Source of the DNA: Sorangiineae bacterium NIC37A_2
Lineage (GTDB): Bacteria; Myxococcota_A; Polyangia; Polyangiales; Polyangiaceae
DNA length: 34,626 bases
Reading direction: 5' to 3'
Assembly (NCBI GenBank): GCA_002085155.1
Contig: NASX01000047.1
Location: 1-34,626, forward strand
Position numbers and translations under genes: made by a program. The notes beneath the pieces were generated by a model, which ran no database searches, was not told the origin of the DNA, and worked only from the letters and a program-made list of their open reading frames with translations. Below are positions 4,027 through 25,127 of the stretch, piece by piece. Every line of letters begins with the position of its first letter. The stretch's first letter is position 1.

Positions 4027-5159
4027 GGTGCCCCCACAACCGGGAAGTAGGCCTTGTCCTGTCGCTTGCCTTTGTAGCTTCCGTAGACGCGCAGGGCTTC
4101 GTCGAGAGCGATGCGCGCTTCGGGACCAGGCATGTCGACTACGGACGGAACGATGAAGATGATGTTTTCGATTTGCCTCGATTCGGAACGATGAGTCCCG
4201 AAGAGATGTCCGAGGATCGGGATCTGAGAGAGGAACGGGAGTCCCCCTTGGCTACTGAGTTCGGACTTCGCGCTCAGGCCCGCGAGGACGATCGTCTGGC
4301 CAAGCTCGAGGTTCACGACAGTCTTGAGATCCGATCGAATGCGCCCGGGAACGCCAGAGCCGCGATCGTCGGAGAGGTCAGAAACGTCCGCAGAAATTTG
4401 AAGCTCGAGACGACCCGTCGAAGAGTCGTAACGCGGGAGCACGTCGATGGTGCTTCCGTACTGAATCGCGTGGATGCCCGTGCCGAGGCCGTTTTGAACG
4501 GGAATGTTGACCTCGCCGCCCCCGGAGAAGGTAGCCGCCTGACCGTTCTCCGTGATGACCGCGGCCTTCCGCTGCAGCTTCGCCCAACCCTTCGCCTGGG
4601 CCACATCGAGCCGAAGCAACGCCTGATCGGCGACGACTGCAGTGGCGCTGTTGAGCGAGCGGCTCAGAAAATCGAACTCCGCGGAGAACGTGCCCGCGGT
4701 CACGCTCGAGGGATAAGCGGGGCCGATCTGGTGCATGTAACCACGGTCGACCTGCACGAAATAGAAATCGAGCCGGATGTTCTCGGCTTGCTGAACGACA
4801 ATGCCCCCTTCAGTTTGGGCAATCGGAGCTTCGACGGTGACCTTGATGTGTTCCTCGCGCCCGTCGGTCATCAGAAAGAGCACAGTCGTCGTCCCCGGCT
4901 GCAGCGCGACGAGCACGAATTGTTTCGCGTCCCGCGTCAGGCGGACTTCGACGACTCCACGTTTTCCTTCCGAGTAGCTGCGCACCCCTTCCGCCGAGAG
5001 CACGCGCTGCTCGCCAATTTGCAGCGTCAACTCTCGCGTTTCAGCGATATTCAGCTGCACCGACTCTTGGGACTGAGCTCTCGCTTGCCCGAGGGAGACG
5101 GAGGGCACAAGCCCCAGCGCCAGACACAAGATGGCCCTTGTCAAACGATTAGCGCACAT
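4023..5159 (-). CDS. cpaC: CpaC/RcpA-type secretin, outer-membrane pore of the Tad pilus
   Basis: This 378-residue protein is predicted to form the outer-membrane channel through which the Flp pilus exits. The chosen start (ATG at 5159) gives MCANRLTRAILCLALGLVPS, a normal signal peptide with cleavage near QARA. An upstream in-frame extension to 5261 lies inside cpaB and is rejected. After the signal come the pilus-secretin N-terminal domain (IAETRELTLQIGEQRVLSAE; FVLVALQPGTTTVLFLM) and a conserved secretin core (VNIPVQNGLGTG; STIDVLPRYD; LKTVVNLELGQTIVLAGLSA; GGLPFLSQIPILGHLFG). The last block is the canonical secretin signature VPFLSxIPILGxLF. The gene begins inside the end of cpaB (11-base overlap) and ends overlapping tadA. 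No separate BON domain was noticed. Confidence 0.93.
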   Translation of the reverse strand: MCANRLTRAILCLALGLVPSVSLGQARAQSQESVQLNIAETRELTLQIGEQRVLSAEGVRSYSEGKRGVVEVRLTRDAKQFVLVALQPGTTTVLFLMTDGREEHIKVTVEAPIAQTEGGIVVQQAENIRLDFYFVQVDRGYMHQIGPAYPSSVTAGTFSAEFDFLSRSLNSATAVVADQALLRLDVAQAKGWAKLQRKAAVITENGQAATFSGGGEVNIPVQNGLGTGIHAIQYGSTIDVLPRYDSSTGRLELQISADVSDLSDDRGSGVPGRIRSDLKTVVNLELGQTIVLAGLSAKSELSSQGGLPFLSQIPILGHLFGTHRSESRQIENIIFIVPSVVDMPGPEARIALDEALRVYGSYKGKRQDKAYFPVVGAP

Positions 5160-5886
5160 GTTCAATCTCCCGAGTCTTCGTGGGGACAAGAGCCTTCGTG
5201 GTGCCCTCTTTCGGCGGTTCGGGGGCTGCCCGGAGCGCGATGTCGTCAGAACCACGCACAACGATCCGAAGCTGACAGTTTCGCTCCGCCTTCATCAGCG
5301 TCTCCGCCTCCTCAGGCAGCAGACTGAGCGAGAGCCCCGAGGTCGTCCGGAAGCCGCTGCTCTTCTTGGTCTGAGTTTCCTCTTCGTTCTTCAGGCGATC
5401 TCCGACGGCGAGCACAAGCGCTCGCTCAAGGACAGTCTTCGCTCCGTCGGCGCGCCCACACAGCACATCCACCCGGTTCCCCACGCGAACCAGCGCACCA
5501 AACGGATTCGCCTCGGGGCCTAGCTGGTAAGCGCGACGCCCGGACGCGACCAAGGAAGAAAGGTCAGCACGGGAGCTATCTCCGCCCGCCACATCTCCCC
5601 AATAGAGCCCTTCGCCGGCGCGCACCGTTGTCACGAGCGGCACACCCACGAGCTGTCCCCGCTCTTTCGCAGGGATGCGTCGAGGATCGAGATACGCCTC
5701 CGGCACCCAGGTTGTCTCGAGGGCCGCATCGTCCACGACGTCGCCAGCGTTCATGTCCCGGGTCAGGACCAGCACGGCCTGTTGAGGTCCGCCGGCGAGC
5801 TCCTGCTTGACCTTCTGAAGATATTGGTGCGCTCCCAAAGACCCCACACAAAGACCGAGCGCCGCGATCAAAACCTGCTTATTCAA
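5149..5886 (-). CDS. cpaB: CpaB/RcpC-type Flp pilus assembly protein
   Basis: This 245-residue periplasmic or inner-membrane protein stabilises or modulates the secretin in Tad systems. It starts MNKQVLIAALGLCVGSLGAH, a membrane anchor typical of CpaB, followed by an SAF-like domain (VLVLTRDMNAGDVVDDAALE; RGQLVGVPLVTTVRAGEGLY) and the RcpC domain (ANPFGALVRVGNRVDVLCGR; RALVLAVGD; SLSLLPEEAETLMKAE). I chose TTG at 5886 because a GGAGG ribosome binding site sits five bases before it. GTG codons at 5898 and further upstream are possible but lack a site. The frame stays open far upstream, antisense to the DUF1993 gene, but that stretch is not coding. It is the first gene of the minus-strand tad operon. 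Confidence 0.9.
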   Translation of the reverse strand: MNKQVLIAALGLCVGSLGAHQYLQKVKQELAGGPQQAVLVLTRDMNAGDVVDDAALETTWVPEAYLDPRRIPAKERGQLVGVPLVTTVRAGEGLYWGDVAGGDSSRADLSSLVASGRRAYQLGPEANPFGALVRVGNRVDVLCGRADGAKTVLERALVLAVGDRLKNEEETQTKKSSGFRTTSGLSLSLLPEEAETLMKAERNCQLRIVVRGSDDIALRAAPEPPKEGTTKALVPTKTREIEHVR

Positions 5887-5914
5887 GGTAGCCTCCACAC
5901 GCGAGTTCACTCGG

Positions 5915-5931
5915 ACGCTTCCGGGAAGCGT
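5915..5931. promoter_or_regulatory. Inverted repeat upstream of the minus-strand tad operon
   Basis: A perfect 7-3-7 inverted repeat (ACGCTTC, CGG, GAAGCGT) lies about 30-45 bases upstream of the cpaB start. A TTGACG hexamer resembling a -35 element lies on the minus strand at 5934-5939, but the matching -10 position is poor. The repeat could be an operator or an mRNA leader hairpin. There is no direct evidence for either. Confidence 0.3.
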
Positions 5932-6084
5932 TGCGTCAAAAGACCCAAAACTCTCTTGCCCGACGGCCAGAAAGCGCCCCCCAGCCGCGGGCGCCGACAA
6001 GCCGCTCGTGGCCCGAAAAGCCCCGCGTCGAGGCGGCACGCGGAGGCCCTTGACGACCTCGGGGCACGCTGCCAGAGCGAGGGC

Positions 6085-6600
6085 ATGTCGATGTACACCG
6101 CGACCGTTCCCCAGCTCTGTAAGATGCTCCGCAACATGGAAGGCTGGCTCGACAAGGCCGAAGCCCATGCGGCGGCGCGCAAGTTCGACGTCAACGTCCT
6201 CCTGAGCACCCGCCTGGCGCCCGACATGTTCCCCTTGGTGCGCCAGTTTCAGTCGGCTTGCGACACCGCGAAGTTCCTCGCGGCTCGCCTCGCAGGCAAA
6301 GAAGCTCCGAGCGATCCAGACACCGAGACGACCTTCGCCGAGATCCGCGCGCGCATTCAGAAAACCGCTGCCTTCGTCGCAACGATCGAGGAAGCGGACT
6401 TCAAGGATGCTCAGACCCGTCTCGTGAAGATCGGCTATCTTCCCCCGAACAAGCGCGTTGTCGGCAGCGTTTACCTGAACGAGCAGGCGCTCCCGAACTT
6501 CTACTTCCATGCCGCCATGGCCTACGCGATCTTGCGACACAACGGCGTGGACGTCGGAAAGGCCGATTTTCTCGGGTCTTATCCTCTCGTCGACGTCTAA
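6085..6600 (+). CDS. DUF1993 family protein
   Basis: This 171-residue soluble protein matches the DUF1993 family along its length. It has an N-terminal helix MSMYTATVPQLCKMLRNMEG, then FDVNVLLSTRLAPDMFPLVR, QFQSACDTAKFLAARLAG, and the C-terminal block LPNFYFHAAMAYAILRHNGV followed by ADFLG. The family is predicted to adopt a DinB-like four-helix bundle, and no enzymatic role is established that I know of. The start at 6085 is preceded by GCGAGGG; ATG at 6091 is an alternative. The frame is open upstream to 5782, but that part is antisense to cpaB and not coding. It stands alone between the two tad arms, is divergent from cpaB and is closed by its own hairpin, so I doubt it belongs to the pilus system. 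Confidence 0.88.
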   Translation: MSMYTATVPQLCKMLRNMEGWLDKAEAHAAARKFDVNVLLSTRLAPDMFPLVRQFQSACDTAKFLAARLAGKEAPSDPDTETTFAEIRARIQKTAAFVATIEEADFKDAQTRLVKIGYLPPNKRVVGSVYLNEQALPNFYFHAAMAYAILRHNGVDVGKADFLGSYPLVDV

Positions 6601-6624
6601 TTCCGTCGCCCTCGCGAGGCGCAT

Positions 6625-12782: not shown

Positions 12783-13847
12783 TCAGTCCTCTCCAGAGTC
12801 CTTCTTCTTCTGGAACTTGGACTCTTCCGCGAAGGCCCAGTCTGAGGCCCAGCTGCTGATCGTGTAGATCTCGCTGCCCTCAGGGAGCTTCGCGTAGCGG
12901 CTCGAGCCTTCGGCGTTCGAACCGAACAGGACCTGAGTTTTGGCGTCGCCGATGGTGATCGTGAGCTCAGCCAGGGGCTTGTCGAGACCCGTATCGCTGA
13001 GGCTCTTCCCATCTCCGAAGCCCGTCGCGTTCAGGGACTTGTAAGCGCGGAGGAGGTCGTCGACCTTGCTCGACTCGAAGTCTTTGATCGCCGAAAGAGC
13101 GCCGGCCTTACCCTTCTTGAAGCGGCCCGACCACTTGTCGCCTTCTTTCTTGAACTCGAAGGCGCCGTTTTCGTTCACGACGTCGACGCGGGTGACTTTT
13201 TCGGTCTCGAACTTCAAGACGCTCGTGTCCCGCCAGCCCTTGGTGTCTCGGGAGAACAGGTAGCTCGAGTAGCCGTCGATGACGAAGACGCCTTCTTGGC
13301 CAGGGAGGCGAGCCGTCTGGCCCCGGCCGCCGCTCTTGCCCGCAAAGAGCTCAAGCGCAACCTTGTCTCCTTCGAAGACGGTGATGTGGGTCGCTTTGTC
13401 GTCGCTGAGGTCGTACTGAGCGTAGCTTTCCGCCGAGCTCGAGATCTGCTCCTTGATCTTCAGCTTGGGCAAGCTGGACAGGAGGCTCTCGACGTTCGTC
13501 TGGTTGGCGAGGGCGCTGAGGGGCTCGGAGAGTTTCCACTCCGCCCCTTCTTTGACCAGGGTGTGGCGCTCGGGAGGTGCGATGGCGGCGCCTTCGGCTG
13601 CGTCGGAGGGGCGCTCGATCACGATCTTCGTCGCGTTGTCCTTAATGGACTCGGCGACCGACAAGGTCGGGAGAGTCGCCGCGGCGACCTCTCCCGAGAG
13701 GCTCTTGATCTCGGCCTTCTTCCCTTCCGTCTGGAGGTAGAGAGCGCCGCCCAACAGGGCGAGGACGCCAAGCGCGATGTAGAGACGCCTTTCACTCCCC
13801 GTCGCCGAGCTAGCGACCGGTTTGTTTTCAGTTGAAGATTCCGTCAT
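12783..13847 (-). CDS. DUF4340 protein of a Gld-type ABC cassette
   Basis: This 354-residue protein has one N-terminal membrane helix (about 22-38, LYIALGVLALLGGALYLQ) and a large periplasmic region with the repeated beta-rich DUF4340 pattern. Examples are KIVIERPSDAAEGAA, LVKEGAEWKLSEPLSALAN, VTRVDVVNENGAFEFKKEGD and LAELTITIGDAKTQVLFGSN followed by YTISSWASDWAF. DUF4340 genes are commonly found directly after GldG-type genes, as here, and the protein is thought to work with the transporter; its exact role is unknown. The start is ATG at 13847 with an AGGAGA site, 33 bases after gldG. It is last in the operon and followed by the 12645-12675 hairpin. Confidence 0.9.
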   Translation of the reverse strand: MTESSTENKPVASSATGSERRLYIALGVLALLGGALYLQTEGKKAEIKSLSGEVAAATLPTLSVAESIKDNATKIVIERPSDAAEGAAIAPPERHTLVKEGAEWKLSEPLSALANQTNVESLLSSLPKLKIKEQISSSAESYAQYDLSDDKATHITVFEGDKVALELFAGKSGGRGQTARLPGQEGVFVIDGYSSYLFSRDTKGWRDTSVLKFETEKVTRVDVVNENGAFEFKKEGDKWSGRFKKGKAGALSAIKDFESSKVDDLLRAYKSLNATGFGDGKSLSDTGLDKPLAELTITIGDAKTQVLFGSNAEGSSRYAKLPEGSEIYTISSWASDWAFAEESKFQKKKDSGED

Positions 13848-13880
13848 GGGAAAGATCTCCTGGGGCTAGGGTGTGATTCG

Positions 13881-15725
13881 TTAGGCGGCCTTCTGGGCGC
13901 GCTTCGCCTCGCGGCTCCGCCACCTGAAGAAACCAACTCCACCGAACGCCAAGGGAACTCCGAGCGTCAGCGTCCACTGAACTCGCTTCTGCAAGTCCTT
14001 ACGCGCCGTACGATACTCTTCGTCCTTCTTGCGAATCTCTTCTTCCGAGTCGTCGACCTTGAACTCAGGCTTCTTGACGCTCGAGTAGGTCAGGTTCGCC
14101 TCGCCGAGGATCTTGGCGCTGGCCGCGATGAGATCGGTGTCCCCGCTCATCCAGTCCAGCGTGTTCTTCAGGCTGAGGATGGTCTGGGTCAGGTACTTCT
14201 GGGCGTAGGGGCCAGCAAACTGGAGGAGCTCCTTGTTGCCGCCGAGCGCTCCGAACATCGCCATTTGGCCGTGCTGCTCAGGTCCGTTGCCCGCGTAGGC
14301 AAAGGGGTTCGTGAGGAACTGGCTCGACGAGATGACAAGAACGCGAGACGGCTTGGCCGCGACCTCGGGAGCGGTGATCCCTTCCCCGGGGTTCCCAGCA
14401 AAAGCGCTCTTCAGCTTTCCTTCGGCGCTCGCCGCGATGATGCGCTGCTCGAAGGGAGGCTTCGGATCCCAGCGGTCACGCAGCGACATGTCGACGGTGT
14501 CCGCGACGATCACGTTCGCTGCGGGGGTCGTGCGAGCCACCGCCTTGAGCGTCACGTCTGCGGGCTGCTTGTCGCGATGGAGCACAAGGGAGCTCGGATA
14601 GGGGAACATGATCTCGTCCATCCGGAAGAAAGCCGGGAACGAGGTGTCGAGGAGTCTCTCGTTGTCAGCGAACCGAGGATCGTTGACGACGTGAGCGATG
14701 CCCGGGTGACGGATCCAGGCCATCGTACCCATGCCGACCATGACCGGGATGCGGAACTGGGCGCCGTGGTCGAGGACGGCGTCCTTCTGCATCTCGATGC
14801 CATAACCGCTGAGCAGGGGTCCGAGTCCGTGCAGGGTCAGCTCAGCGCTCATGGCCGAATCGTTCGGCTTCATGGAGACGGCCGAGGCGATCACGACAAG
14901 CGACTTCTCTCCGAGCATCAAAAACTCGTCGATGCGGCGGAGCTCCTTGTCGGTGTAGTCGGCGCCCGGCTGAGTGATCATCAGGCCAACGAAGGACGGA
15001 TCGATCGCCGAGTCCCCGCCTGCGAGGTCGACAGTCTCGATCTCATAGAACGGGAAGTTCTGCTTGATGATCTGCTCAAGCGTCGGAGAGCCGCCCTGAC
15101 CACGGGGGATCAGGTTCGTATCGGTGAGCTTGAGTTCGTCTTTGCCGGTGATGACGCCGATCTTGTGCTTGATGTTGTCGTTCTTATCCCGGATCTCGCG
15201 GATCTTGTTGGTGATGAAGAACTCGAGACCATCGCCCCGTGCGGGGTGGAGCGCGGGGATGACCGCGGTCTCACTGCCGTACTTGAAGACAAGGCCGAGG
15301 AAGCCCTGGGTGATGGCGGCGCTCTCGTCGCCCGTCGCGCTGGCTTCGCCGAACGGCTGCTCCGTCACGCCAGCCTCGCGAGCCTTCTCCCGCGCTTCGT
15401 CCGTCTTCGGCTCGATGATGCTGAACTTAAACTTGCCTCCGCCTTGACGCTCGTACTCCTTGAGCAGGTCGGTCAGGTCACGCACGAACGCGTCGAGCTG
15501 AGCCAGGCCGGTCTTCACGTAAGCGTCGACCTGCACGGGCTCTTTCAAGCTCCGCACCAGACGACCTGAACCCTGGCTGAGGGTGAAGCGCTCCGTGGCG
15601 GTGGTGTCGATACGTTTATAGGCGCCCGCCGAGAGGAGGTTCGCCACCACAACGATGGCCACGATCACTACGAGGTAGAGACCGGTTTGCGCTGCTGCTT
15701 TCCGTTTTTGATCTTGGGTCGCCAT
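13881..15725 (-). CDS. gldG: GldG-type ABC transporter auxiliary protein
   Basis: This 614-residue protein has an N-terminal membrane helix (about 15-35, GLYLVVIVAIVVVANLLSAG) and a C-terminal one (LTLGVPLAFGGVGFFRW), with a long periplasmic domain between. The domain starts with ERFTLSQGSGRLVRSLKEPV and VQVDAYVKTGLAQLDAFVRD. It continues with the conserved GldG/IFT52-like core (HKIGVITGKDELKLTDTN; YEIETVDLAG; DKELRRIDEFLMLGEKSLVV). It sits three bases after the permease gene and before the DUF4340 gene. In Bacteroidetes GldG works with GldA and GldF in gliding. In other phyla this cassette is widespread without gliding, and its substrate is unknown. ATG at 15725 is the only sensible start. 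Confidence 0.9.
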   Translation of the reverse strand: MATQDQKRKAAAQTGLYLVVIVAIVVVANLLSAGAYKRIDTTATERFTLSQGSGRLVRSLKEPVQVDAYVKTGLAQLDAFVRDLTDLLKEYERQGGGKFKFSIIEPKTDEAREKAREAGVTEQPFGEASATGDESAAITQGFLGLVFKYGSETAVIPALHPARGDGLEFFITNKIREIRDKNDNIKHKIGVITGKDELKLTDTNLIPRGQGGSPTLEQIIKQNFPFYEIETVDLAGGDSAIDPSFVGLMITQPGADYTDKELRRIDEFLMLGEKSLVVIASAVSMKPNDSAMSAELTLHGLGPLLSGYGIEMQKDAVLDHGAQFRIPVMVGMGTMAWIRHPGIAHVVNDPRFADNERLLDTSFPAFFRMDEIMFPYPSSLVLHRDKQPADVTLKAVARTTPAANVIVADTVDMSLRDRWDPKPPFEQRIIAASAEGKLKSAFAGNPGEGITAPEVAAKPSRVLVISSSQFLTNPFAYAGNGPEQHGQMAMFGALGGNKELLQFAGPYAQKYLTQTILSLKNTLDWMSGDTDLIAASAKILGEANLTYSSVKKPEFKVDDSEEEIRKKDEEYRTARKDLQKRVQWTLTLGVPLAFGGVGFFRWRSREAKRAQKAA

Positions 15726-15728
15726 ATC

Positions 15729-16463
15729 TCAAGCCCACTTGCGGCGTTCGAGCGCGCGGAACGAAATCACGAGGCAGAGTGCCGTGATCGAAAGGAAGAA
15801 CACGACATCCCGAGTGTCGATGAGGCCCCGCATGAAACCGCTCATGCGAGTCTGGAAGCTGATGTAGTGCAGGAAGTTCGCCACTGCGCCGGTCATCTGG
15901 TCGGCCATCGAGCCCGAGAACCAGAAGGCTCCGAGCAAGAAGAGCGTGACGAAGAAGCTGATTGCCTGGCTCTCGGTCAAAGAGCTCACGAGCAGACCCA
16001 CCGAAACACTCGCGGCTGCGTAGAGCAGAAGCCCGACGTAACCGCTCAGGATCGGGCCGCTGTCGAGCGGACCGAGGTTCCAGGGGAACTTGAACATGAA
16101 GAGCGGGTAGGTCACCGAACCGAGCACAACGATCAGCACCAGGCCGAGCGCGCCCAGGTACTTGCCGAGGATGACGTCGCTGTCCTTCACGGGCAGCGTG
16201 ATCAGCATCTCGAGGGTTCCGGACCGACGCTCTTCGGCCATCAGGCGCATCGTCACGACCGGCACCACCACCATCGCGAGCCCTGCGGGCAGGTACTCGA
16301 AGAGCGGCTGCATCGTCGCGCGATCCAGCTGCCAGAAGCCGCCGCGGAAATTGAAGAACAGGAGCCCGAGTCCGAAAAAGCTCAGGCAAATCACGACATA
16401 GGCGAGCGGCGAGTCGAAATACGACCGGAACTCGCGCTTCGCGATAGAAAGCACCGCGTCCAT
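15729..16463 (-). CDS. gldF: GldF-type ABC-2 permease
   Basis: This 244-residue inner-membrane permease has six hydrophobic helices and the ABC-2 family motif between helices two and three: MRLMAEERRSGTLEMLITLP, where EERRSGTLE is the signature. The N-terminal SIAKREFRSYFDSPLAYVVI resembles GldF closely. It begins immediately after the ATPase stop (TAA then ATG) and ends three bases before gldG, so the three genes are one translational unit. Together with the ATPase it should form the exporter core. Confidence 0.92.
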   Translation of the reverse strand: MDAVLSIAKREFRSYFDSPLAYVVICLSFFGLGLLFFNFRGGFWQLDRATMQPLFEYLPAGLAMVVVPVVTMRLMAEERRSGTLEMLITLPVKDSDVILGKYLGALGLVLIVVLGSVTYPLFMFKFPWNLGPLDSGPILSGYVGLLLYAAASVSVGLLVSSLTESQAISFFVTLFLLGAFWFSGSMADQMTGAVANFLHYISFQTRMSGFMRGLIDTRDVVFFLSITALCLVISFRALERRKWA

Positions 16464-17543
16464 TTAAGCTTTCTCCTTTTCTGATTCCTCTTCGTCGGCC
16501 CCATCGTCCTGGTCGTCGTCCTCGTCCTCATCGTCGTCGAACGATTCGGTGCGACCGCGGTCGAGCGCCTCGTCGCCCCGCGTCAGGTCGCGGAACACTG
16601 CGTCGAGGCTCTGAGCGTCACGATGAAGCTCGAGCAGGAGCCATCCCTTATCAACTGCGAGACGGAAGATCTCCGCGCGAACGTCGGAGTCCTTCGCCCC
16701 TGAAAGCTCGAAGCGGTGCGCCGACTCGTCGTTCGGCAGCTCTCGGACCTTGCGCACGCCAGCCAAAGCAGCGAGCGCATCCTCGATCTCCCGGACGCTC
16801 GGCGCGGCAGCGTCAGCCCGCAGCGCCTTGTCGTCGACGGTGACAACGTAACGAACTGCGCCGGTCTTGGCGCGAATTTCGTCGAGCTGTCCGTCGGCAA
16901 CGACGCGTCCCTTCGAGACGATGATCGCGCGGGCGCAGGCCTGCTCAACTTCGCTCAAGTTGTGGGTCGAGAGCAGGACCGTACGGTCTTTTCCAATGTC
17001 CTGGATGTAGCGGATCACCTCGGCCTTCTCGTTCGGATCGAGGTCAGCGGTCGGCTCATCGAGGATCAGGATCTGCGGATCGTGGAGCAGCGCCTGGCCG
17101 AGACCGACGCGCTGACGATAACCATGGGACAGCGTTCCGATGTCCTTGTGGAGCGCCTGGGCAAGGCCGCACACCTCCACAACCCGGCCGAGCGCCTTCT
17201 TGAACTGATCGGCCTTGAGGCCACGGATCTCTGAGACGAACGTGAGATAGTCGATCACGCTCATATCCGTGTAGAGGGGCGCTCGCTGCGGCAGGTACCC
17301 GATAGCGCGACGCACAGCGAGCGGATCATCGAACACGTCGATCCCGCTCACCTTCGCCGTGCCGCTCGAGGGCGCGAGGAAGCACGTGAGAATTCGCATG
17401 GTGGTCGACTTTCCAGCGCCGTTTGGCCCCAGAAACCCGACTACCTCACCTTTTTTCACTTCAAAGCTAACCTTATCGAGCGCTCGGACTCCTCCGAAAC
17501 GCTTCGAAAGCTCGCTCGCGTGAATCATGACATCCGTGGACAA
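16464..17543 (-). CDS. gldA: GldA-type ABC transporter ATPase with acidic C-terminal tail
   Basis: This 359-residue cytoplasmic ATPase has Walker A GPNGAGKST at 39-47, ABC signature LSHGYRQR at 138-145, Walker B ILILDEP at 158-164, then the D-loop and the H-loop in LLSTHNLSEVEQA. All catalytic motifs are intact. A C-terminal domain of about 120 residues ends in a roughly 27-residue tail made almost entirely of Asp and Glu. I chose TTG at 17543 because an AGAGG ribosome binding site lies eight bases before it. The in-frame ATG at 17528 would leave that site too far away. It is the first gene of the cassette and likely carries the operon promoter in 17544-17649. Confidence 0.93.
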   Translation of the reverse strand: MSTDVMIHASELSKRFGGVRALDKVSFEVKKGEVVGFLGPNGAGKSTTMRILTCFLAPSSGTAKVSGIDVFDDPLAVRRAIGYLPQRAPLYTDMSVIDYLTFVSEIRGLKADQFKKALGRVVEVCGLAQALHKDIGTLSHGYRQRVGLGQALLHDPQILILDEPTADLDPNEKAEVIRYIQDIGKDRTVLLSTHNLSEVEQACARAIIVSKGRVVADGQLDEIRAKTGAVRYVVTVDDKALRADAAAPSVREIEDALAALAGVRKVRELPNDESAHRFELSGAKDSDVRAEIFRLAVDKGWLLLELHRDAQSLDAVFRDLTRGDEALDRGRTESFDDDEDEDDDQDDGADEEESEKEKA

Positions 17544-17775: not shown

Positions 17776-18516
17776 TCAGAACCCCACTTTTCTCATGATG
17801 AAGCGCGGCAGGGCCCGAATCACGAACATCACAAGGGCCCAAGCGCGGGGCGCGTAGACCACTGGGGTCCCTTTGTCGATCGCCCGGACCACCAAGGCGG
17901 CCACCTGATCCGGTTCGCCGGCAAAGGGCGGCGGCTTCAAGCCGGCCGTCATTTGCGTCTTCACGAAACCGGGCTTCACACAAACCGTGACGAGCCCTTC
18001 AGAACGGAAGCGATGATCCAAGCCTTCGAGGTAGGTACTCAGGCCTGCCTTGCTCGCGCCGTAAATGAAGACAGGCTTGCGGCCCCGATCGCCGGCTACG
18101 GAGCTGAACACACAGAGCGTCCCGCCCCCTCGCGAAAGCAATCGCTTCCGAGCCAGTTCACAGAAAGCTATCGTGTTCGCGAAGTTCGCGACCAAGAGAC
18201 GATGAGCGAAGACGGTGTCCTCCTCGAGACGCTCCCCGGTTCCAAACAGAGCCGCCGTCACGATCACCGTGTCGAAACCGCCTAGGTGAGCGTCGGCGAG
18301 CGACAGAGCTTGTTCGAAGCATGCCGGGTCCTCCAGGTCACACTCTGCGAACCCCACCGGGTCTCGGTCTTTGCCGCGCAGCGTCAGGTCGGCGGCGCTC
18401 CGCTCGAGCTCCTTCGCGTCAATTCCCAACAAAAAAAGGCGATCGCCGCGCTCTGCCAGCCTCCTGCTGACGGCCCGGCCCATCCCGCCCGTAGCGCCCA
18501 GTACGACAACCTTCAC
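17776..18516 (-). CDS. dprE2: DprE2-like short-chain dehydrogenase/reductase
   Basis: This 246-residue NAD(P)-dependent reductase has the nucleotide-binding motif GATGGMG at 8-14 and the catalytic Ser-Tyr-Lys set in VFSSVAGDRGRKPVFIYGAS followed by KAGL. The tail VYAPRAWALVMFVIRALPRF then IMRKVGF closely follows the end of mycobacterial DprE2 (APxAFxxVMxVLRxIPRxIFRK). DprE2 reduces the 2'-keto sugar made by DprE1, completing conversion of decaprenylphosphoryl-ribose to the arabinose form. Being 17 bases downstream of a DprE1-like gene makes the pairing convincing. The lipid carrier and true sugar in this organism are not known. ATG at 18516 is at the right distance from the Rossmann motif. 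Confidence 0.85.
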   Translation of the reverse strand: MKVVVLGATGGMGRAVSRRLAERGDRLFLLGIDAKELERSAADLTLRGKDRDPVGFAECDLEDPACFEQALSLADAHLGGFDTVIVTAALFGTGERLEEDTVFAHRLLVANFANTIAFCELARKRLLSRGGGTLCVFSSVAGDRGRKPVFIYGASKAGLSTYLEGLDHRFRSEGLVTVCVKPGFVKTQMTAGLKPPPFAGEPDQVAALVVRAIDKGTPVVYAPRAWALVMFVIRALPRFIMRKVGF

Positions 18517-18533
18517 AATGAACTCCTCACCGC

Positions 18534-19877
18534 TTACCCGCCGATCCCGAAAAGGCGAGCGCTCTGTGCGCTCCGAAACTCGAAATCAGGATCCCAACGC
18601 CTCTTCACTTCCAAGAAGGCGTCGATTCGATCGTCCATCTTCCTGAAGTCTTCCGGCGTCGTCATCCCATCCTTGGTCAGGTAGATGCGCCCGCTGTGGC
18701 GGAGGACGATCTCGTTCAGCTCGTGGATCATCTCCTTTGAGCGGTCGAGCATCGGCACGTCGAGCGCTAGAGAAATCCCCGGCTTCGGGAAGCTCAAGAG
18801 GCCCTCTCCCTGTTCGCCGCAGTCCTTGATCACAGTCAAAAACGACGCCGCACCGAACTTCTCGAGCACGCCCATCATCTCGAGCAGCGCTTCACGGCCG
18901 GTCGCTTTATTTACGACGGATTGGTGCTGGGTCACGCCGCGTGAACCATACGCCCGATTCCAATTTCGCACCCAATCGAGGGGATAAAAGACCTGATCGG
19001 GAGAAACGACCTTTCGGCGCGTCTTGCCGAAGTGGGACCGATAGACGAGCTCATTGAACACCCGAATCGTGAAGCGATTCAGGAGGCCGGAGGGCAAGTC
19101 GAACGGCATCGGGATCGAGAGGCCCCCCTTCGAGACTTCGGGGGGAGCTTCGTGCGGTTCGGCCCAACGACCGAGGAAGAGAATGCCGCGGCCGCGCCCT
19201 TTTCCGCGCGTCACAGTGTCAGCCCAAGCCGCCGTGTACGGCCAGGTCTTTCCCTTCTCATCCAAGAGGGCCAAAAGTTCGTCGAGGCTCTCGACGCGGT
19301 GCGTCTCAGACACCATCCAGGTCGAAGGAATTCGAACCATCCGCACGCTCACCTCGAGGATGTGACCGGTGAGGCCCATGCCGCCGAGGGTCGCGAAGAA
19401 GAGATCCGGGTGCTCCGTGCGGCTGCACTCGACCACCACCCCCCGTCCCGTTCGGACCAAGAGCGATTCGACGTGACGACCAAAGGTCCCGCTCACATGA
19501 TGGTTCTTGCCGTGAACATCCGACGCGACCATGCCGCCGAGGGTCACGAACTTCGTTCCGGGGGTCACCGGCGTGAACCAAAGGCGCGGGAGAAAGAGCC
19601 GGTTGAGCTCGGCGAGACACAAGCCTGCCTCGGCGCGGAGAAGGCCCGTTGACTCGTCGAAACTCAGCAACCGATCCGCCAGCGTCGTGTTCACCGCTAC
19701 AGCGTCGGGGCTCGCGAGGAGCGAAGCGTCTCCGTAGGATCGCCCGAGCCCACGTGAAAGGGGTCGTCCTTCGGAGAGCCGAGCCAAATTCTCTCCGCGG
19801 ATCTCAGCGCCCGGCAAATGGGTCCGGCCCCAGCCGCAAAGGCCCGGCGGTTGCGTCGATCGAGTGAGAGGAGCCAT
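18534..19877 (-). CDS. dprE1: DprE1-like FAD-dependent polyprenylphosphoryl-sugar oxidase
   Basis: This 447-residue protein is of the FAD-binding-4/ALO family. Its FAD domain has SRGLGRSYGD (41-50), VTPGTKFVTLGGMVASDVHG and HGKNHH (122-127), matching mycobacterial DprE1, whose H132 corresponds to H122. The substrate domain keeps DQVFYPLDWVRNWNRAYG, SFPKPG and GRIYLTKDGMTT. K402 matches DprE1 K418, which binds substrate. The residue matching Cys387, the benzothiazinone attachment site, is Ala371 here, judged by ungapped alignment of the surrounding block. The predicted reaction is FAD-dependent oxidation of the ribose 2'-hydroxyl on a lipid phosphate. It lies 26 bases after ppnP and 17 before the reductase gene. 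Alignment was by eye from memory. Confidence 0.88.
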   Translation of the reverse strand: MAPLTRSTQPPGLCGWGRTHLPGAEIRGENLARLSEGRPLSRGLGRSYGDASLLASPDAVAVNTTLADRLLSFDESTGLLRAEAGLCLAELNRLFLPRLWFTPVTPGTKFVTLGGMVASDVHGKNHHVSGTFGRHVESLLVRTGRGVVVECSRTEHPDLFFATLGGMGLTGHILEVSVRMVRIPSTWMVSETHRVESLDELLALLDEKGKTWPYTAAWADTVTRGKGRGRGILFLGRWAEPHEAPPEVSKGGLSIPMPFDLPSGLLNRFTIRVFNELVYRSHFGKTRRKVVSPDQVFYPLDWVRNWNRAYGSRGVTQHQSVVNKATGREALLEMMGVLEKFGAASFLTVIKDCGEQGEGLLSFPKPGISLALDVPMLDRSKEMIHELNEIVLRHSGRIYLTKDGMTTPEDFRKMDDRIDAFLEVKRRWDPDFEFRSAQSARLFGIGG

Positions 19878-19903: not shown

Positions 19904-20233
19904 TCAGAGGTAGCTACAAACGTATTGGGCCGGCTCACCGGACACCGCGATCGTGAAGACGGCGTCACCAGGGACGTCGAAGAAAGTACCGGCGGGGTAG
20001 GTCCGGCGCTCGGCGCCAGGCAGCTCGACCTCCAGCGCTCCCGCGGTCACCTCCATCCGCTCCGGGGCCTTGGTGTCAAAGGAGTAGGTTCCCGGGAACA
20101 CGATGCCCAGGGTCTTCTTCGAACCATCGGCAAACAGGACAGTGTGGCTCACAACTCCACCGCCAAAGTAAACATTCGCACGAGCGAGAACTGAAACCTG
20201 ATCGAATCTCTCGGGGGAGGCCGTTTGGGACAT
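19904..20233 (-). CDS. ppnP: Pyrimidine/purine nucleoside phosphorylase PpnP (DUF1255)
   Basis: This 109-residue cupin-fold protein matches E. coli PpnP along its length: FDQVSVLARANVYFGGGVVS, GTYSFDTKAPERMEVTAGAL, EVELPG, AGTFFDVPGD and the terminal YVCSYL. PpnP splits nucleosides with phosphate into base and ribose-1-phosphate and accepts both purine and pyrimidine nucleosides. The start ATG at 20233 gives a family-typical N-terminus; the open frame up to 20410 has no family match and overlaps the cysB-like gene. It lies 73 bases after cysB and 26 before dprE1 on the same strand, so an operon is plausible. Its product, ribose-1-phosphate, gives a possible thread to the ribose-lipid genes downstream, but that link is speculative. 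Confidence 0.92.
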   Translation of the reverse strand: MSQTASPERFDQVSVLARANVYFGGGVVSHTVLFADGSKKTLGIVFPGTYSFDTKAPERMEVTAGALEVELPGAERRTYPAGTFFDVPGDAVFTIAVSGEPAQYVCSYL

Positions 20234-20306
20234 CGGGCCGGCTTTGTAGCACAGCGTTTCGTGATCCGGAGACCCTGGCCCCGAAAAAGGAGGCTCATTT
20301 TTGGCG

Positions 20307-21272
20307 TCAGGCCTCGTCGAAGCTCCGCGGGAGCGCCGAGCTAGGGCTCGCCTCTGAGAAAATTGCGGCATCGACCACACTCCTCGTGAGAGCCGGAGAC
20401 GTGAGCTCAATGAATCGATAAGTGTAGCCCTTGAGGTAGGCCCCCCGCCTCAGCGCGACCCCCGTCGTCGAAGGCGGGAACAGGTGGCTTGCATCACGAG
20501 CTTCGAGCCCAGCATCTGCCTCCTCGGAGAAAGCCATGGTGGCCACAATGCCAACTCCAAGCCCAAGGCGCACGTAGGTCTTGATGATGTCAGCGTCGAT
20601 TGCGGAAAGGACGACGTTCGGGGAGAGACCCGCAGCGACGAAGGCCGCGTTGATTTGTGAGCGTCCCGTGACTGAAGAGGCGTAAGTCACGATCGGGTAA
20701 CGGGCGAGCTCCTGGAGCGTCAGCTGCTTCGTCGAAAGGATCGGATGACCTGTGGGTGCGATAACAGACCGATTCCACTCGTAACAAGGGAGCACGGCGA
20801 GTTCCGGATAGTCGTAGAGAGCCTCGGTCGCGATCGCGAGATCTGCCTTCCCTTCGAGCACCTCCTCGGCCACCTGGTAGGGGCTGCCTTGATGCAAGAC
20901 CAGGTGCACGTCGGGATAGGTCTCACGAAACTCCTGGACGACCTTCGGCAACGCGTAACGCGCCTGGGTGTGGGTGGTCGCGAGCACTAACGTGCCCCGC
21001 TCAGCGTTTCGATAGCCGACGGCGACCTGACGCAAAGCGTCGGCATCTGCCAACATACGTGCGGCGAGCCGGTGCACCTCCTGGCCCGGTCCAGTCAGCC
21101 CAGCCAGGCGCTTTCCCTTCCGTACGAACAAGGGTGCGCCGATTTCACTTTCGAGAATGGCGAGCTGACGGCTCAAGCCGGGCTGCGACTGACGCAACTC
21201 TTGCGCCGCCCGCGAAACGTTGAAGTCGTTCCGGATCACAGCGCGAAAGATCTCGAGCCGCTGCAGGTTCAT
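20307..21272 (-). CDS. cysB: CysB-like LysR-family transcriptional regulator
   Basis: This 321-residue LysR-type regulator has its winged HTH at residues 1-60 (MNLQRLEIFRAVIRNDFNVS, AAQELRQSQPGLSRQLAILE). Its sensor domain matches CysB strongly: ATTHTQARYALPKVVQEF, LHQGSPYQVAEEVLEGKADL then AIATEAL, YPIVTYASSVTGRSQINAAF and IDADIIKTYVRLGLGVGIVA. The threonines of TTHTQ and VTGRS that bind sulfate or acetylserine in CysB are present. CysB activates sulfur assimilation genes and represses itself. The start at 21272 is fixed by homology; the open frame continuing to 22718 is antisense to the kinase gene and not coding. It is divergent from the kinase gene with 171 bases between. Confidence 0.9.
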   Translation of the reverse strand: MNLQRLEIFRAVIRNDFNVSRAAQELRQSQPGLSRQLAILESEIGAPLFVRKGKRLAGLTGPGQEVHRLAARMLADADALRQVAVGYRNAERGTLVLATTHTQARYALPKVVQEFRETYPDVHLVLHQGSPYQVAEEVLEGKADLAIATEALYDYPELAVLPCYEWNRSVIAPTGHPILSTKQLTLQELARYPIVTYASSVTGRSQINAAFVAAGLSPNVVLSAIDADIIKTYVRLGLGVGIVATMAFSEEADAGLEARDASHLFPPSTTGVALRRGAYLKGYTYRFIELTSPALTRSVVDAAIFSEASPSSALPRSFDEA

Positions 21273-21443
21273 CGGACTCGACCATACTCGATGGGGCCGG
21301 CTGTCCCGAATGGGAAAGGTCGAAGGGTCGGAGAGCGTATCCAATGGATTGGGCCCTCGGCCGCCCCCTAAGAGGAGCGCCCCGGTCCGGAACCCACTGT
21401 CCGACTGGGTCTCACTCGCGGTCCCGAGTCGCAGGATTTCTCT

Positions 21444-24400
21444 ATGGATTTGGACGGGATACACGCCGAAACTGAACCCATGGCGCGAGACGCTCTCGAC
21501 CCAGCCTCTGACAGCGCTCTCCTCGTGCCGAGCGCCTCTCTCTACCGACGAGGGGGTCGTCCGATCCCGCGCAGCCTCGGCGGGGGGCGCTTCCAGATCG
21601 AACGTGAGCTCGGGAGCGGAGGTGAAGGCATCGTCCTGCTCGCGCACGACAAGGTGAGGCGAGGGCGCGTCGCGCTCAAGATGCTCCACACGAGCGAGTT
21701 CATGTCCGTCGGCGCTCTCAAGCGCGAGTTTCGTTTTCTGCGCGGACTGATTCACCCGAACCTGGCCCAGCTCTACGAGCTGCACATTGAGCACGATGAG
21801 GCCTTCTTCACGATGGCCTACATCGAGGGACAACACTTCCTTCACGCGGCCGCTCGGACTCACCCTCTTCGCCCCCTGCTCGCCCAGCTCATGCAGGTCC
21901 TCGCGTTCCTCCACGCGCGAGGGCTCGTCCACCGGGACCTCAAACCTCAAAATATCCTTGTCCAAAACAACGGCAGGGTTGTGCTCGTCGACTTCGGCGC
22001 CGGACTGCGCCTCGAAAGGGATGCACTGCAAGCCCGCGCCGTCCTCGGAACGCCGGAGTACATCGCGCCCGAGCTCCTTCAAGGAGCCTCCCCTTCGCCG
22101 AAGTCCGATTCCTACTCTCTCGGGCTCGTCCTCTTCGAAGCCCTCACACAAGAGAAGTACCCAGGAGGCGGAACGCGCCCGAGCGATCTCGCGCCCGAGC
22201 TCCCCAAGGACCTCGATGAGCTTTGTATTCGGCTTCTCGATCCCGATCCTGAGCACCGCCTCTCGATCGCAGAAGCGCTCACCACTGTTGTCGAGCCAGG
22301 GACACCAGTGCACGACAGCCTTGTCCCTTCGCTCGATCGACACCGCTTCGCCGGTCGCTCCGAGGAGCTTCTCAAGCTCGACACGGCCTTCGTGCGCATG
22401 CTCGAAGGAGACGAACCCGTGCTCGCCTTCCTCTCCGGAGAGAGCGGCGTCGGCAAAACGGCGCTCCTCGAGCGCTTCCGCTCCCGACGCCGTGACGCTC
22501 TCGTTCTCTTCGGCCTCTGCTCCGAGAACGAGTACATCCGTCACAAAGCGTTCGACGGCGTGATCGGGAGCCTTCTCGACTATCTCCGCAGTCCAAAGGC
22601 ACCAGAAAACGACCTCACCCGCTCCTTGTCCAAGGAGGATCGCGCCGCCCTGGCTCAACTCTTCCCTGAACTTCGAGAGCTCCTGGCCTTCCGGAGCGCG
22701 GAGATGCGCCCGGATCATGGGCTCGAACCCCGCGCCGCGCGCCGCGCCGGCTATCGCGCGCTCGCTCGTTTCCTCACCGCGCTCACCCGAGAGATCCCGG
22801 TCGTGATCGCCATCGACGATCTGCAGTGGGGAGACGTGGACTCCGCTCGCCTCATCTTTGAGGTCTTCTCAGGGCCCCAGGCGCCCCCGTGCCTCCTCAT
22901 TCTCTCCTACCGCTCCGATCTGAAAGGGGAGAGTCCCTGTCTCCTTGCGTTGCGTCAGGGCGCCGAGTGCCTCGAGGACGAGCTACCCTGCCTTGATCTT
23001 CGGCTCGGTCCCCTCGGGATGGATGAATCGAAGGAGCTCTGTGAGACGCTCGCTGAAGGGGAGCTCTCGGACGGCCTGATGGAGCGACTCGCCTACCGAT
23101 CGCAGGGCAATCCCTTCTTGATCACCGAGCTCGTCAATTACTTTAGACAGCTTGTCCGCAGCGACCGAGCCGACGAAGATATCGAGTATCCACAAATCAT
23201 CGCGGAGAAGGTTTCTGCCCTGTCTCCCGCGGCGCGGGATCTATTTGCGCTGTGTTGTCTCGGTGGGCAGCTCCCCGTTCCACGCGTTCGAGAGCTCCTC
23301 GGCAAAGATCCGCGCGGCCCTATGGATGAGCTCATCTCGGCGCGGCTCTGCTCGACGCGCGCCGGGAGCATGAGCATTGGACCTTTGCACGATCAGGTCC
23401 GCCGGGCCTTCGTCACGCTTGGCTTCCGCGGGGATCGCGACCTGCACTTGCGCCTGGCTCGCGCCTTCCTCGTCGAGCCCAGCGATCAAGGCAAAGCCGC
23501 GCTCCATTTCTTCAGCGCTGGCGAAAAAGAGCTGGCCGGTGGACACGCGGAAGAAGCGGCGATGGAGGCTGAGAGCCGTCTTGCCCTGGATCAAGCCGTC
23601 GAGCTGTTCCAACTCGCCCTCGACTGCCTCGGCCCCGGAGCGAGCGCAGACCACCTCTTCCGCCTGGAAGAGCGAAAGGCACTCGCGCTCGCGAATGCAG
23701 GTCGCGCCGCCGAGGCCGCCCCCGTGTTCGCGCGCCTCGCAGAGACCGCGTCGCCTCCGCTGGCTCACGAATACCGCCGCCGCGCGGCTGAACAGTGGCT
23801 CTGCAGCGGCGCCATTGCCCAAGGGGTCGCGCTCCTCGAGCGCGTTCACCGCGAAGTGGGACTCACCTGGCCCAATTCACCCAAGCGGGCCCTGATCGCG
23901 ACGGCCATCGGACGCGCGCGGCTCGCATTCCGCTCAACTCCGAAGTCGCCTCAGAGCACACCCCCCAAGGGCCGTCTCGCGCTCCGACTCGAGACCTGCC
24001 GCACGGCTTGGTCGATCGGACATATCAGCTCCGTGCACGGCGCGGCCAACAGCGCTCGTCAGCTCCGCTTCGCTCTCGACTCAAACTCCGCCGAACCGAT
24101 CGCCTTTGCCATCGGCATGGAAGCGTGTTTTCGGGCGATGCGGGGCACGAAAGCGCGAGGGCTCGTCGAAGAATATCGCGCCACCGCCGAGAGGCTCATG
24201 CCGACACCTCGCTCGCATTATGGAGAAGCGTTCCTCGCGTTCATTCACGCGATGTCGCTTTACTTCCTGAGTGATCAGCGCGAGGCCTATTCCTACTTCG
24301 AGCGCGCTGAACGATTGCTCTTTGAGAGGTGTCGCGCGGTGTCGTGGGAGCTTTCGACGACGCGCATGTTTTGGGCCTCGAACATGATCTTCCTCGGACG

Positions 24401-25127
24401 ACATCGCGAGCTGGATCGGAGGATGCGCGTCTGGCTGCGCGATGCGCGACAGCGGAGCGACTTGAACGCACTCACGGGTCTTCAGATTTGGCAGGCGCGC
24501 CGCATCGGGCTTCGCGACGGCGACGGCGAGGAAGCGATCGCGCTGATCGAGTCGGCCACCGCAGGCTGGACCTCTCCCTATCTCGGGACTCATGCAGCGA
24601 GCGCGCGTCTCGTCGCCTCCTACTCCGAGCTGCTCCGCGGTCAGCCAGAACGCGCTCTCCGGGAGCTCGACAAGCTCGAAGAGGAGGTCGGCAAGACAAT
24701 GGTCGCGCGGGTCCAGGTACTTCGGACGTCAGTGCTGAACACTCGCGGCGTCGCTGAGCTCACCTGCGCTCTCGAGAGCTCTGGCTCTGCGCGAACTGCC
24801 CACTTGGCTCAAGTCGACAAAGTGGTACTCGCGCTCGATCGGGAAGGGACAGCGCTCAGTCGCGCTGCCACGCTCCACCTGCGCAATTCGGTGCTCTGGC
24901 TGCGGGAGCGCTCCGAGGCCGCCATCAGCGGTTTGCGCGAAGCCGCGCAGAAGTATCGTGCCGTCGGCTATGAGCTGAACGCTGCTTGCATCGAGCTCGT
25001 GCTCGGAGAGCTCCTGCAGGGAGCCGAAGGTGAGTCTCTGCAGAAAGAAGCGTTCGGGGCGCTCAGCCGGTCAGACGTCGACACTCAAGGCCGCGCCGCT
25101 CGCGCCTACGCGCCGAAGCTCATCTGA
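21444..25127 (+). CDS. Serine/threonine protein kinase fused to an AAA-type ATPase and long helical tail
   Basis: This 1227-residue cytoplasmic protein has a Hanks-type kinase domain at about 50-285: glycine loop GSGGEG 57-62, K79 in VALK, HRD at 163-165 within HRDLKPQN, DFG 183-185, APE 208-210. All catalytic residues are present. From about 300 comes an AAA_16-like ATPase, RFAGRSEELLKL, with Walker A GESGVGKT at 332-339 and Walker B VVIAIDDLQWGD further on. From about 650 to the end is a helical repeat-rich region, probably TPR-like (KALALANAGRAAEAAPVFAR and similar). No membrane helix or HTH was seen. This architecture is common in Myxococcota. The ATG at 21444 has a weak AGGA site; ATG at 21480 is possible. 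The partner and target are unknown. Confidence 0.92.
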   Translation: MDLDGIHAETEPMARDALDPASDSALLVPSASLYRRGGRPIPRSLGGGRFQIERELGSGGEGIVLLAHDKVRRGRVALKMLHTSEFMSVGALKREFRFLRGLIHPNLAQLYELHIEHDEAFFTMAYIEGQHFLHAAARTHPLRPLLAQLMQVLAFLHARGLVHRDLKPQNILVQNNGRVVLVDFGAGLRLERDALQARAVLGTPEYIAPELLQGASPSPKSDSYSLGLVLFEALTQEKYPGGGTRPSDLAPELPKDLDELCIRLLDPDPEHRLSIAEALTTVVEPGTPVHDSLVPSLDRHRFAGRSEELLKLDTAFVRMLEGDEPVLAFLSGESGVGKTALLERFRSRRRDALVLFGLCSENEYIRHKAFDGVIGSLLDYLRSPKAPENDLTRSLSKEDRAALAQLFPELRELLAFRSAEMRPDHGLEPRAARRAGYRALARFLTALTREIPVVIAIDDLQWGDVDSARLIFEVFSGPQAPPCLLILSYRSDLKGESPCLLALRQGAECLEDELPCLDLRLGPLGMDESKELCETLAEGELSDGLMERLAYRSQGNPFLITELVNYFRQLVRSDRADEDIEYPQIIAEKVSALSPAARDLFALCCLGGQLPVPRVRELLGKDPRGPMDELISARLCSTRAGSMSIGPLHDQVRRAFVTLGFRGDRDLHLRLARAFLVEPSDQGKAALHFFSAGEKELAGGHAEEAAMEAESRLALDQAVELFQLALDCLGPGASADHLFRLEERKALALANAGRAAEAAPVFARLAETASPPLAHEYRRRAAEQWLCSGAIAQGVALLERVHREVGLTWPNSPKRALIATAIGRARLAFRSTPKSPQSTPPKGRLALRLETCRTAWSIGHISSVHGAANSARQLRFALDSNSAEPIAFAIGMEACFRAMRGTKARGLVEEYRATAERLMPTPRSHYGEAFLAFIHAMSLYFLSDQREAYSYFERAERLLFERCRAVSWELSTTRMFWASNMIFLGRHRELDRRMRVWLRDARQRSDLNALTGLQIWQARRIGLRDGDGEEAIALIESATAGWTSPYLGTHAASARLVASYSELLRGQPERALRELDKLEEEVGKTMVARVQVLRTSVLNTRGVAELTCALESSGSARTAHLAQVDKVVLALDREGTALSRAATLHLRNSVLWLRERSEAAISGLREAAQKYRAVGYELNAACIELVLGELLQGAEGESLQKEAFGALSRSDVDTQGRAARAYAPKLI

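Follow-up and report, generated by a model that had tools for sequence, protein, structure and literature searches.

The locus considered here raises the question of what two adjacent genes resembling those of the mycobacterial DprE1–DprE2 epimerase are doing in a genome of the Myxococcota. The window, that is, the whole stretch of DNA analysed, is 34,626 nucleotides (nt) long and corresponds to an entire contig (NASX01000047.1, labelled C58) of the 5.0 Mb, 150-contig genome of Sorangiineae bacterium NIC37A_2. On its minus strand, positions 18534–19877 encode a 447-residue DprE1-like FAD oxidase with an ATG start, the predicted polyprenylphosphoryl-β-D-ribose 2′-oxidase. After a 17-nt intergenic gap read from the sequence (18517–18533, minus strand), positions 17776–18516 of the same strand encode a 246-residue DprE2-like short-chain reductase (SDR) with a GTG start, the predicted reductase of the 2-keto intermediate. 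The gap contains a GAGGAG motif six bases 5′ of the GTG start, and the two genes probably share one message. We consider it likely that the pair forms a two-step 2′-epimerase of a lipid-linked pentose, converting polyprenyl-phosphoryl-ribose into an arabinofuranose donor. In the labels used below, G denotes a genome (G000 being that of NIC37A_2), C a contig and L a locus or sequence row.

A DprE1-like oxidase paired with a DprE2-like reductase

An earlier note on this DNA had proposed an adjacent DprE1/DprE2-like pair in a probable myxobacterial genome; the genome indeed belongs to the Myxococcota, and the identification of the pair is borne out by the best models, PDB sequences, fold ranking and tree. 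The oxidase scores 350.6 bits against the NCBIfam DprE1 model (E-value 1.7e-104), the runner-up TIGR01679 reaching 50.8 bits. In a sequence search of the Protein Data Bank (PDB), the top nine matches of the oxidase are all DprE1 (E-values of 3e-75 to 2.1e-70), followed by cytokinin dehydrogenase at 1.2e-8. An AlphaFold2 model computed from 28 sequences has a pLDDT (predicted local distance difference test) value of 91.2. When this model is compared with the PDB using Foldseek, 45 of the best 49 rows are named DprE1 and the remaining four belong to entries 4pfa and 4pfd, which we take to be DprE1 structures as well; identity to DprE1 over these 49 fold alignments is 31–36%, and cytokinin dehydrogenase follows at rank 50 with 15% identity. 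The predicted FAD-binding PCMH/VAO fold of the oxidase is closest to that of DprE1. Models of aldonolactone oxidases (ALO), in contrast, remain far below their cut-offs (TIGR01679, 50.8 bits versus 292; TIGR01678, 37.8 bits versus 397), and no match to the Pfam ALO domain is found in the oxidase at E≤0.001.

Pfam assigns FAD_binding_4 to the oxidase and adh_short to the SDR. Among NCBIfam models, the SDR scores best with PRK07102 (211.9 bits, cut-off 267) and reaches 154.9 bits with the DprE2 model, while in the PDB its best chain is DprE2 (E-value 2.3e-29, the second match lying at 8.7e-14). The catalytic Ser-Tyr-Lys residues (S139, Y152 and K156) are kept in all 43 SDRs associated with the clade of the window oxidase described below and in all 49 other SDRs compared. 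Elsewhere in the genome, contig C21 encodes another DprE2-like SDR (L076), which was considered and set aside: it is 33% identical to the window SDR, and C21 carries no DprE1 match.

Active-site residues of the oxidase

Residues were compared in an alignment of 109 DprE1 rows, with the Mycobacterium tuberculosis numbering as reference. Y48, H122, K124, W218, Q317, K351, D373, Y399 and K402 of the oxidase correspond to Y60, H132, K134, W230, Q334, K367, D389, Y415 and K418 of the mycobacterial enzyme, nine positions that we take, largely from general knowledge of DprE1, to be pocket residues. All nine are identical in 48/48 rows of the clade. Four positions, Y60, W230, K418 and Y314, are named for DprE1 in passages of PMC6153800. 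The correspondence of H122 and K402 with H132 and K418, and of A371 with C387, had been anticipated in the earlier note and agrees with the alignment.

The same note had remarked on alanine in place of C387, the cysteine targeted by benzothiazinones. The replacement is real, but it does not distinguish this enzyme: within the clade the position holds Ala in 46/48 rows and Cys in 2/48, and the 52 other rows show Ala in 46, Thr in five and Ser in one. Ala is also present in both non-mycobacterial members of a four-row group labelled actinobacterial here. Since Ala is the common state outside mycobacteria, A371 appears ordinary and reflects no special adaptation. In M. avium, the natural resistance to benzothiazinones is attributed to Ala at this position (PMC3206020). 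By analogy, it is a fair inference that the oxidase is insensitive to covalent DprE1 inhibitors, and covalent drugs of this type should mostly spare the non-mycobacterial bacteria in which the target residue is Ala.

Phylogeny, pairing and distribution

A tree of the 109 DprE1 rows was computed with a quick method and SH-aLRT (Shimodaira–Hasegawa-like approximate likelihood-ratio test) support; partial rows (L119 and L134), duplicates (L017 and L020, of L097 and L039) and a Bradyrhizobiaceae row close to a contig end (L143) were left out of both the tree and the residue counts. The window oxidase falls within a 48-row clade (SH-aLRT 100) carried by a long stem of 0.68 changes per column. The refuting outcome named in the earlier note, clustering with other ALO-family oxidases, is not borne out, as the enzyme does not score with these. 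By record title, the members belong to Myxococcota, Acidobacteriota, Planctomycetota and Binatota, with Myxococcota labels on 13 of the 29 named rows. Neither the mycobacterial references nor the enzymes borne on UbiA-DprE1-DprE2 operons fall within the clade, which seems to represent a branch without a characterised member. The SDRs mirror this split, their median identity to the window SDR being 64% within the clade (42 rows) versus 34% outside it (49 rows).

Pairing of the two genes is strongly conserved. A same-strand SDR gene lies directly downstream of the DprE1 gene in 43/48 clade rows, two further rows stopping at contig ends; in a later-collected locus (L225) the SDR gene is upstream. 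Together with the E-values given above, the downstream position in 43/48 rows excludes chance.

The earlier note had presented the enzyme as one known from the actinobacterial wall. The pair is in fact confined neither to actinobacteria nor to this genome, in line with a report on Gram-negative bacteria (PMC11127046). In a sample of 140 Myxococcota genomes (56 of them empty in this search), DprE1 is found at E≤1e-60 in 64, in 29 of which it is of the window kind, with at least 47% identity. Clusters of UbiA, DprE1 and SDR genes also occur in records of Pseudomonadota, Bacteroidota and cyanobacteria, and clusters of UbiA, FAD oxidoreductase and SDR genes are carried by plasmids of Rhizobium, Cereibacter, Azospirillum, Burkholderia, Salipiger and a Flammeovirgaceae bacterium. 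No DprE1 match was found in the phage collection searched.

Two other kinds of DprE1-like protein were encountered. Four rows (L041, L042, L044 and L146) form a distinct group that has Thr or Ile in place of Trp230; within 8 kb of these genes, the sequence stretches compared contain neither an SDR nor a UbiA match, although in G046 a UbiA gene is found 11 kb away on the same contig, and the group possibly acts on a different substrate. A very divergent DprE1-like protein from a genome of the same genus (L043, G001), with about 34% identity to the window oxidase, is adjoined by an SDR and a LysR-like gene.

A probable DPPRS-like partner gene on another contig

A ribosyl lipid substrate would call for a phosphoribosyltransferase of the UbiA type, and the search for one proposed in the earlier note was successful. 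The genome encodes four UbiA proteins, two of which look like CtaB and MenA by sequence reading. A third (L004, L045; G000:C105:56255-57292) passes two NCBIfam cut-offs for DPPRS (NF008977, 237.2 bits versus 234; NF008978, 235.6 bits versus 207) and matches the solved DPPRS structure 8j8j with an E-value of 3.9e-37. Its gene adjoins ligA and cinA, both of which recur near it in three relatives, so that in all four genomes its surroundings are of the housekeeping type. The DPPRS-like gene (C105) and the pair (C58) lie on separate contigs, and a search of the window contig gave no UbiA or GtrA match. The fourth protein (L003; G000:C106:29257-30246) is a second, strongly diverged DPPRS-like UbiA whose gene is divergently oriented to an LPG_synthase_TM gene. 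It was rejected as the main partner on account of its long branch and of its best non-self match in 59 genomes, 84 bits versus 738. An LPG_synthase_TM gene also stands beside the UbiA gene of L113 and L174.

Physical linkage is observed in some relatives. A DPPRS-like UbiA gene lies beside the pair in 4/48 clade rows (L110, L111, L113 and L129) and in five further loci of the phylum (L222–L226), the latter having been picked since both genes stood close on one contig and amounting to 5 of the 29 genomes with DprE1 of at least 47% identity. Of 12 phylum regions fetched, six have no UbiA gene near the pair and one has it 15 kb away. In the UbiA tree, the proteins of L222 and L223, which are from the same class, group with the C105 type (support 99/97), and those of L224–L226 and of the four clade rows belong to a second type (support 100/100). 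This second version of the tree leaves out L003, L120, L128, L133 and L153, has the rows of the C105 type thinned from 30 to 12, and includes as additions four relatives' rows, four of the second type, one fused protein and six pair neighbours.

Across the 140 Myxococcota genomes, a DPPRS match (E≤1e-15) is present in 131: in 64/64 genomes with DprE1 versus 67/76 without it (one-sided Fisher P value of 0.003, uncorrected for relatedness), so that none of the nine genomes lacking a match is among the 64. In six of the genomes of the order that match the C105 UbiA (G040, G045, G046, G049, G051 and G057), the best match is 28–36% identical and of another type. Three of these (G051, G040 and G049) have a clade DprE1 without the first UbiA type, G051 having the second type, and G040 and G049 a HAD-fused type.

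Proposed function and alternative explanations

Given a DprE1/DprE2-like pair and a DPPRS-like enzyme in the same genome, the best reading of these sequences is that the product is a polyprenyl-linked 2-epimeric pentose. In the proposed pathway, the C105 DPPRS-like UbiA would join phosphoribosyl pyrophosphate to a polyprenyl phosphate, probably undecaprenyl phosphate, and a phosphatase would then strip the 5-phosphate. The DprE1-like flavoenzyme would oxidise C2 of the resulting polyprenyl-phosphoryl-β-D-ribofuranose to a 2-keto sugar, which the DprE2-like SDR, using NAD(P)H, would reduce from the opposite face to yield polyprenyl-phosphoryl-D-arabinofuranose. Finally, a flippase would move the donor across the membrane for use by a membrane glycosyltransferase. 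For these last steps, the genome contains two GtrA-type domains, one of them fused to a GT2 domain, and two C75 proteins, 51% identical to each other, which appear GT-C-like by reading. The C75 proteins are homologous to proteins encoded beside DprE1 and UbiA in L142, L153 and L160, and are candidate AftB-like transferases. Among such proteins, the AftB model matches that of L142 (1.5e-10) and one from a locus with a HAD-fused UbiA (L178, 1.8e-17), with no match for L153 and L160; a PDB search with a C75 protein gave no match of weight.

A number of observations weigh against this assignment. The oxidase, at 350.6 bits, misses the 500-bit cut-off of the DprE1 equivalog model NF053785, and the SDR, at 154.9 bits, misses the 250-bit cut-off of the DprE2 model NF053786. 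Operon-borne relatives from outside the actinobacteria (L085 and L088) likewise remain below 500 with 405.3 and 434.2 bits, and their SDRs are also below the DprE2 cut-off. Because NF053785 is missed, the name 'DprE1-like' is used here, and formal membership of DprE1/DprE2 is not claimed, the curated cut-offs being missed and the assignment being based on sequence and predicted fold. Three pocket-near positions are altered: Y314 is replaced by F297 (Phe in 42/48 clade rows), N385 by S369 (Ser in 43/48) and F369 by C353 (Cys in 41/48). An adjoining SDR gene is lacking in 3/48 clade rows and in two of the 12 later regions (L229 and L231).

The partner gene brings reservations of the same kind. 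The C105 UbiA stays under the cut-off of a third DPPRS model (NF008976, 170.4 bits versus 474), and no more than 60 of the 131 DPPRS matches in the phylum exceed the model cut-off. No UbiA gene was seen beside the pair in NIC37A_2 and in most clade rows, 10 of the 48 loci spanning less than 8 kb. Within the order, 57/59 genomes sampled, that of NIC37A_2 included, match the C105 UbiA, among them genomes without DprE1. Being nearly universal even where DprE1 is absent, DPPRS-like genes need another use as well, and for the same reason their co-occurrence with the pair within the order carries little weight. As for the other steps, a genome search with the HAD portion of a fused PPPRS gave no match, this search having no positive control; the two PAP2 proteins of the genome are generic; one C75 protein matches the AftB model weakly (1.9e-4) and the other not at all; and a Pfam scan of one C75 protein reported nothing.

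Among alternative explanations, the one that survives best retains the arabinose donor and changes its destination: in place of an envelope glycan, it would serve to glycosylate a pilus, some other protein or a secreted product. Membrane transferases acting outside the cytoplasm usually modify envelope glycans or exported proteins, which counts against such a destination, and the clustered loci of 18 relatives show no pilus or metabolite gene as a recurring neighbour of the pair. Tad/Flp-type pilus genes are nevertheless present in the window at 735–6624, though 11 kb from the pair. Moreover, one D-arabinofuranoside of myxobacterial origin is on record, a phenazine α-D-arabinofuranoside listed under Nannocystis in a review (PMC4902002), and a DPPRS ortholog of Pseudomonas aeruginosa has been proposed to serve pilin arabinosylation (PMC11127046). 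This destination is possible, if on balance doubtful.

Less probable still is that the same chemistry acts on a polyprenyl-phosphoryl sugar of a different kind, whether a hexofuranose, ribose still carrying its 5-phosphate or a pentose other than ribose, or that the pair epimerises a carbon other than C2. The long stem of the clade (SH-aLRT 100), the lower DprE1 score of the window oxidase relative to its operon-borne relatives (350.6 bits versus 405.3 and 434.2) and the altered positions Y314, N385 and F369 would fit a changed substrate, but the nine pocket residues are constant in 48/48 rows and homology marks the linked UbiA genes as DPPRS-like, making this alternative unlikely. Finally, an unrelated aldonolactone-oxidase-type enzyme merely adjacent to a generic SDR, conceivable given the great size of the FAD_binding_4 and adh_short families, is disfavoured to the point of being highly improbable by sugar-lactone-oxidase scores of 38–51 bits versus 350.6 for DprE1, the lack of a Pfam ALO match, the pairing kept in 43/48 rows and a fold search that puts DprE1 far above the rest.

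Returning to the 2′-epimerase that we favour, a broader and tentative proposal can be made, namely that lipid-linked pentofuranose synthesis may be a core trait of Myxococcota, with DprE1/DprE2 as an optional switch from ribose to D-arabinose and the 48-row clade as a dedicated epimerase. If so, the product would be used either for an as yet undescribed glycan containing arabinofuranose or for the D-arabinofuranosides found among the natural products of myxobacteria.

Comparison with known systems

With the mycobacterial DprE1–DprE2 system, the window pair shares the predicted fold, the nine pocket residues, the combination of an oxidase with a reductase and a DPPRS-like gene in the genome. 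It differs by an identity of 31–36%, by Ala at the C387 position, by scores below the NCBIfam cut-offs and by its separate clade; its lipid, moreover, is presumably undecaprenyl. The UbiA(-HAD)-(GtrA)-DprE1-DprE2 operons found in Pseudomonadota and elsewhere comprise the same enzyme pair with a DPPRS-like gene present, and the SDRs of L085, L088 and the window all score best with PRK07102, whereas DprE1 is 37–44% identical to the window enzyme in seven plasmid-borne rows.

Polyprenyl-phosphoribose systems of Gram-negative bacteria, including three-component pentofuranose systems, are treated by Kelly et al. (2024; PMC11127046), who report DprE1/E2 homologs from Gram-negatives whose glycans contain arabinofuranose. 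Homologs outside Actinobacteria are thus already in print; the kind of pathway is known and nothing is overturned. The window departs from such a three-component system, in which synthase, flippase and GT-C stand together, in that the pair and the DPPRS-like gene are on different contigs. The pilin arabinosylation pathway proposed for P. aeruginosa in the same source offers a further parallel in its DPPRS ortholog and expected undecaprenyl carrier, and a gene for an AftB-like protein adjoins UbiA, GtrA and DprE1 in the relative P. indica (L142); for the window pair, however, no link to a pilin gene is established. Aldonolactone and alditol oxidases of the VAO/PCMH family share the FAD-binding domain of the oxidase, but their models score far lower and fold matches from the wider family rank below every DprE1 entry.

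Among titles and abstract openings of one open-access library, no paper was found on the pair for any of the phyla Myxococcota, Acidobacteriota and Planctomycetota, nor was a glycan product named there for a phylum-wide lipid-linked pentose pathway; in passages of a study of Myxococcus xanthus exopolysaccharide (PMC7484181), arabinose figures as an inducer. The pair represents a testable candidate source of D-arabinofuranose in myxobacteria and points to a lipid-linked pentose pathway extending across the phylum.

Neighbouring genes

On the same strand as the pair, a PpnP nucleoside phosphorylase gene (19904–20410) ends 26 nt ahead of the DprE1-like start, and its product could release ribose-1-phosphate. 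As a part of the system it was rejected, this adjacency being absent from the 18 clustered relatives' loci (in L027 the gene is 7 kb off). On the other side, DUF4340, ABC_transp_aux and GldA-like ABC ATPase genes follow one another at 12783–17543 and resemble gliding-associated ABC systems. These genes begin 232 nt past the SDR gene and were likewise rejected, as they are not kept beside the pair in the same 18 loci.

In three genomes of the family, a gene from one and the same homology cluster directly adjoins the clade DprE1 (L035:10578-11753, L036:10730-11809 and L037:7941-8975); two of these genes were scanned and match deoxyhypusine synthase. Occurring in three loci only, this neighbour was not retained as a system part.

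Elsewhere in the window, the pilus genes at 735–6624 comprise T2SSF, an FHA-T2SSE ATPase, a secretin and RcpC/CpaB, and positions 21444–25127 encode a 1227-residue protein that combines a Ser/Thr kinase domain with AAA_16. The start of this last gene is overlapped by a long minus-strand open reading frame (20307–22718), of which the terminal part alone looks LysR-like by eye.

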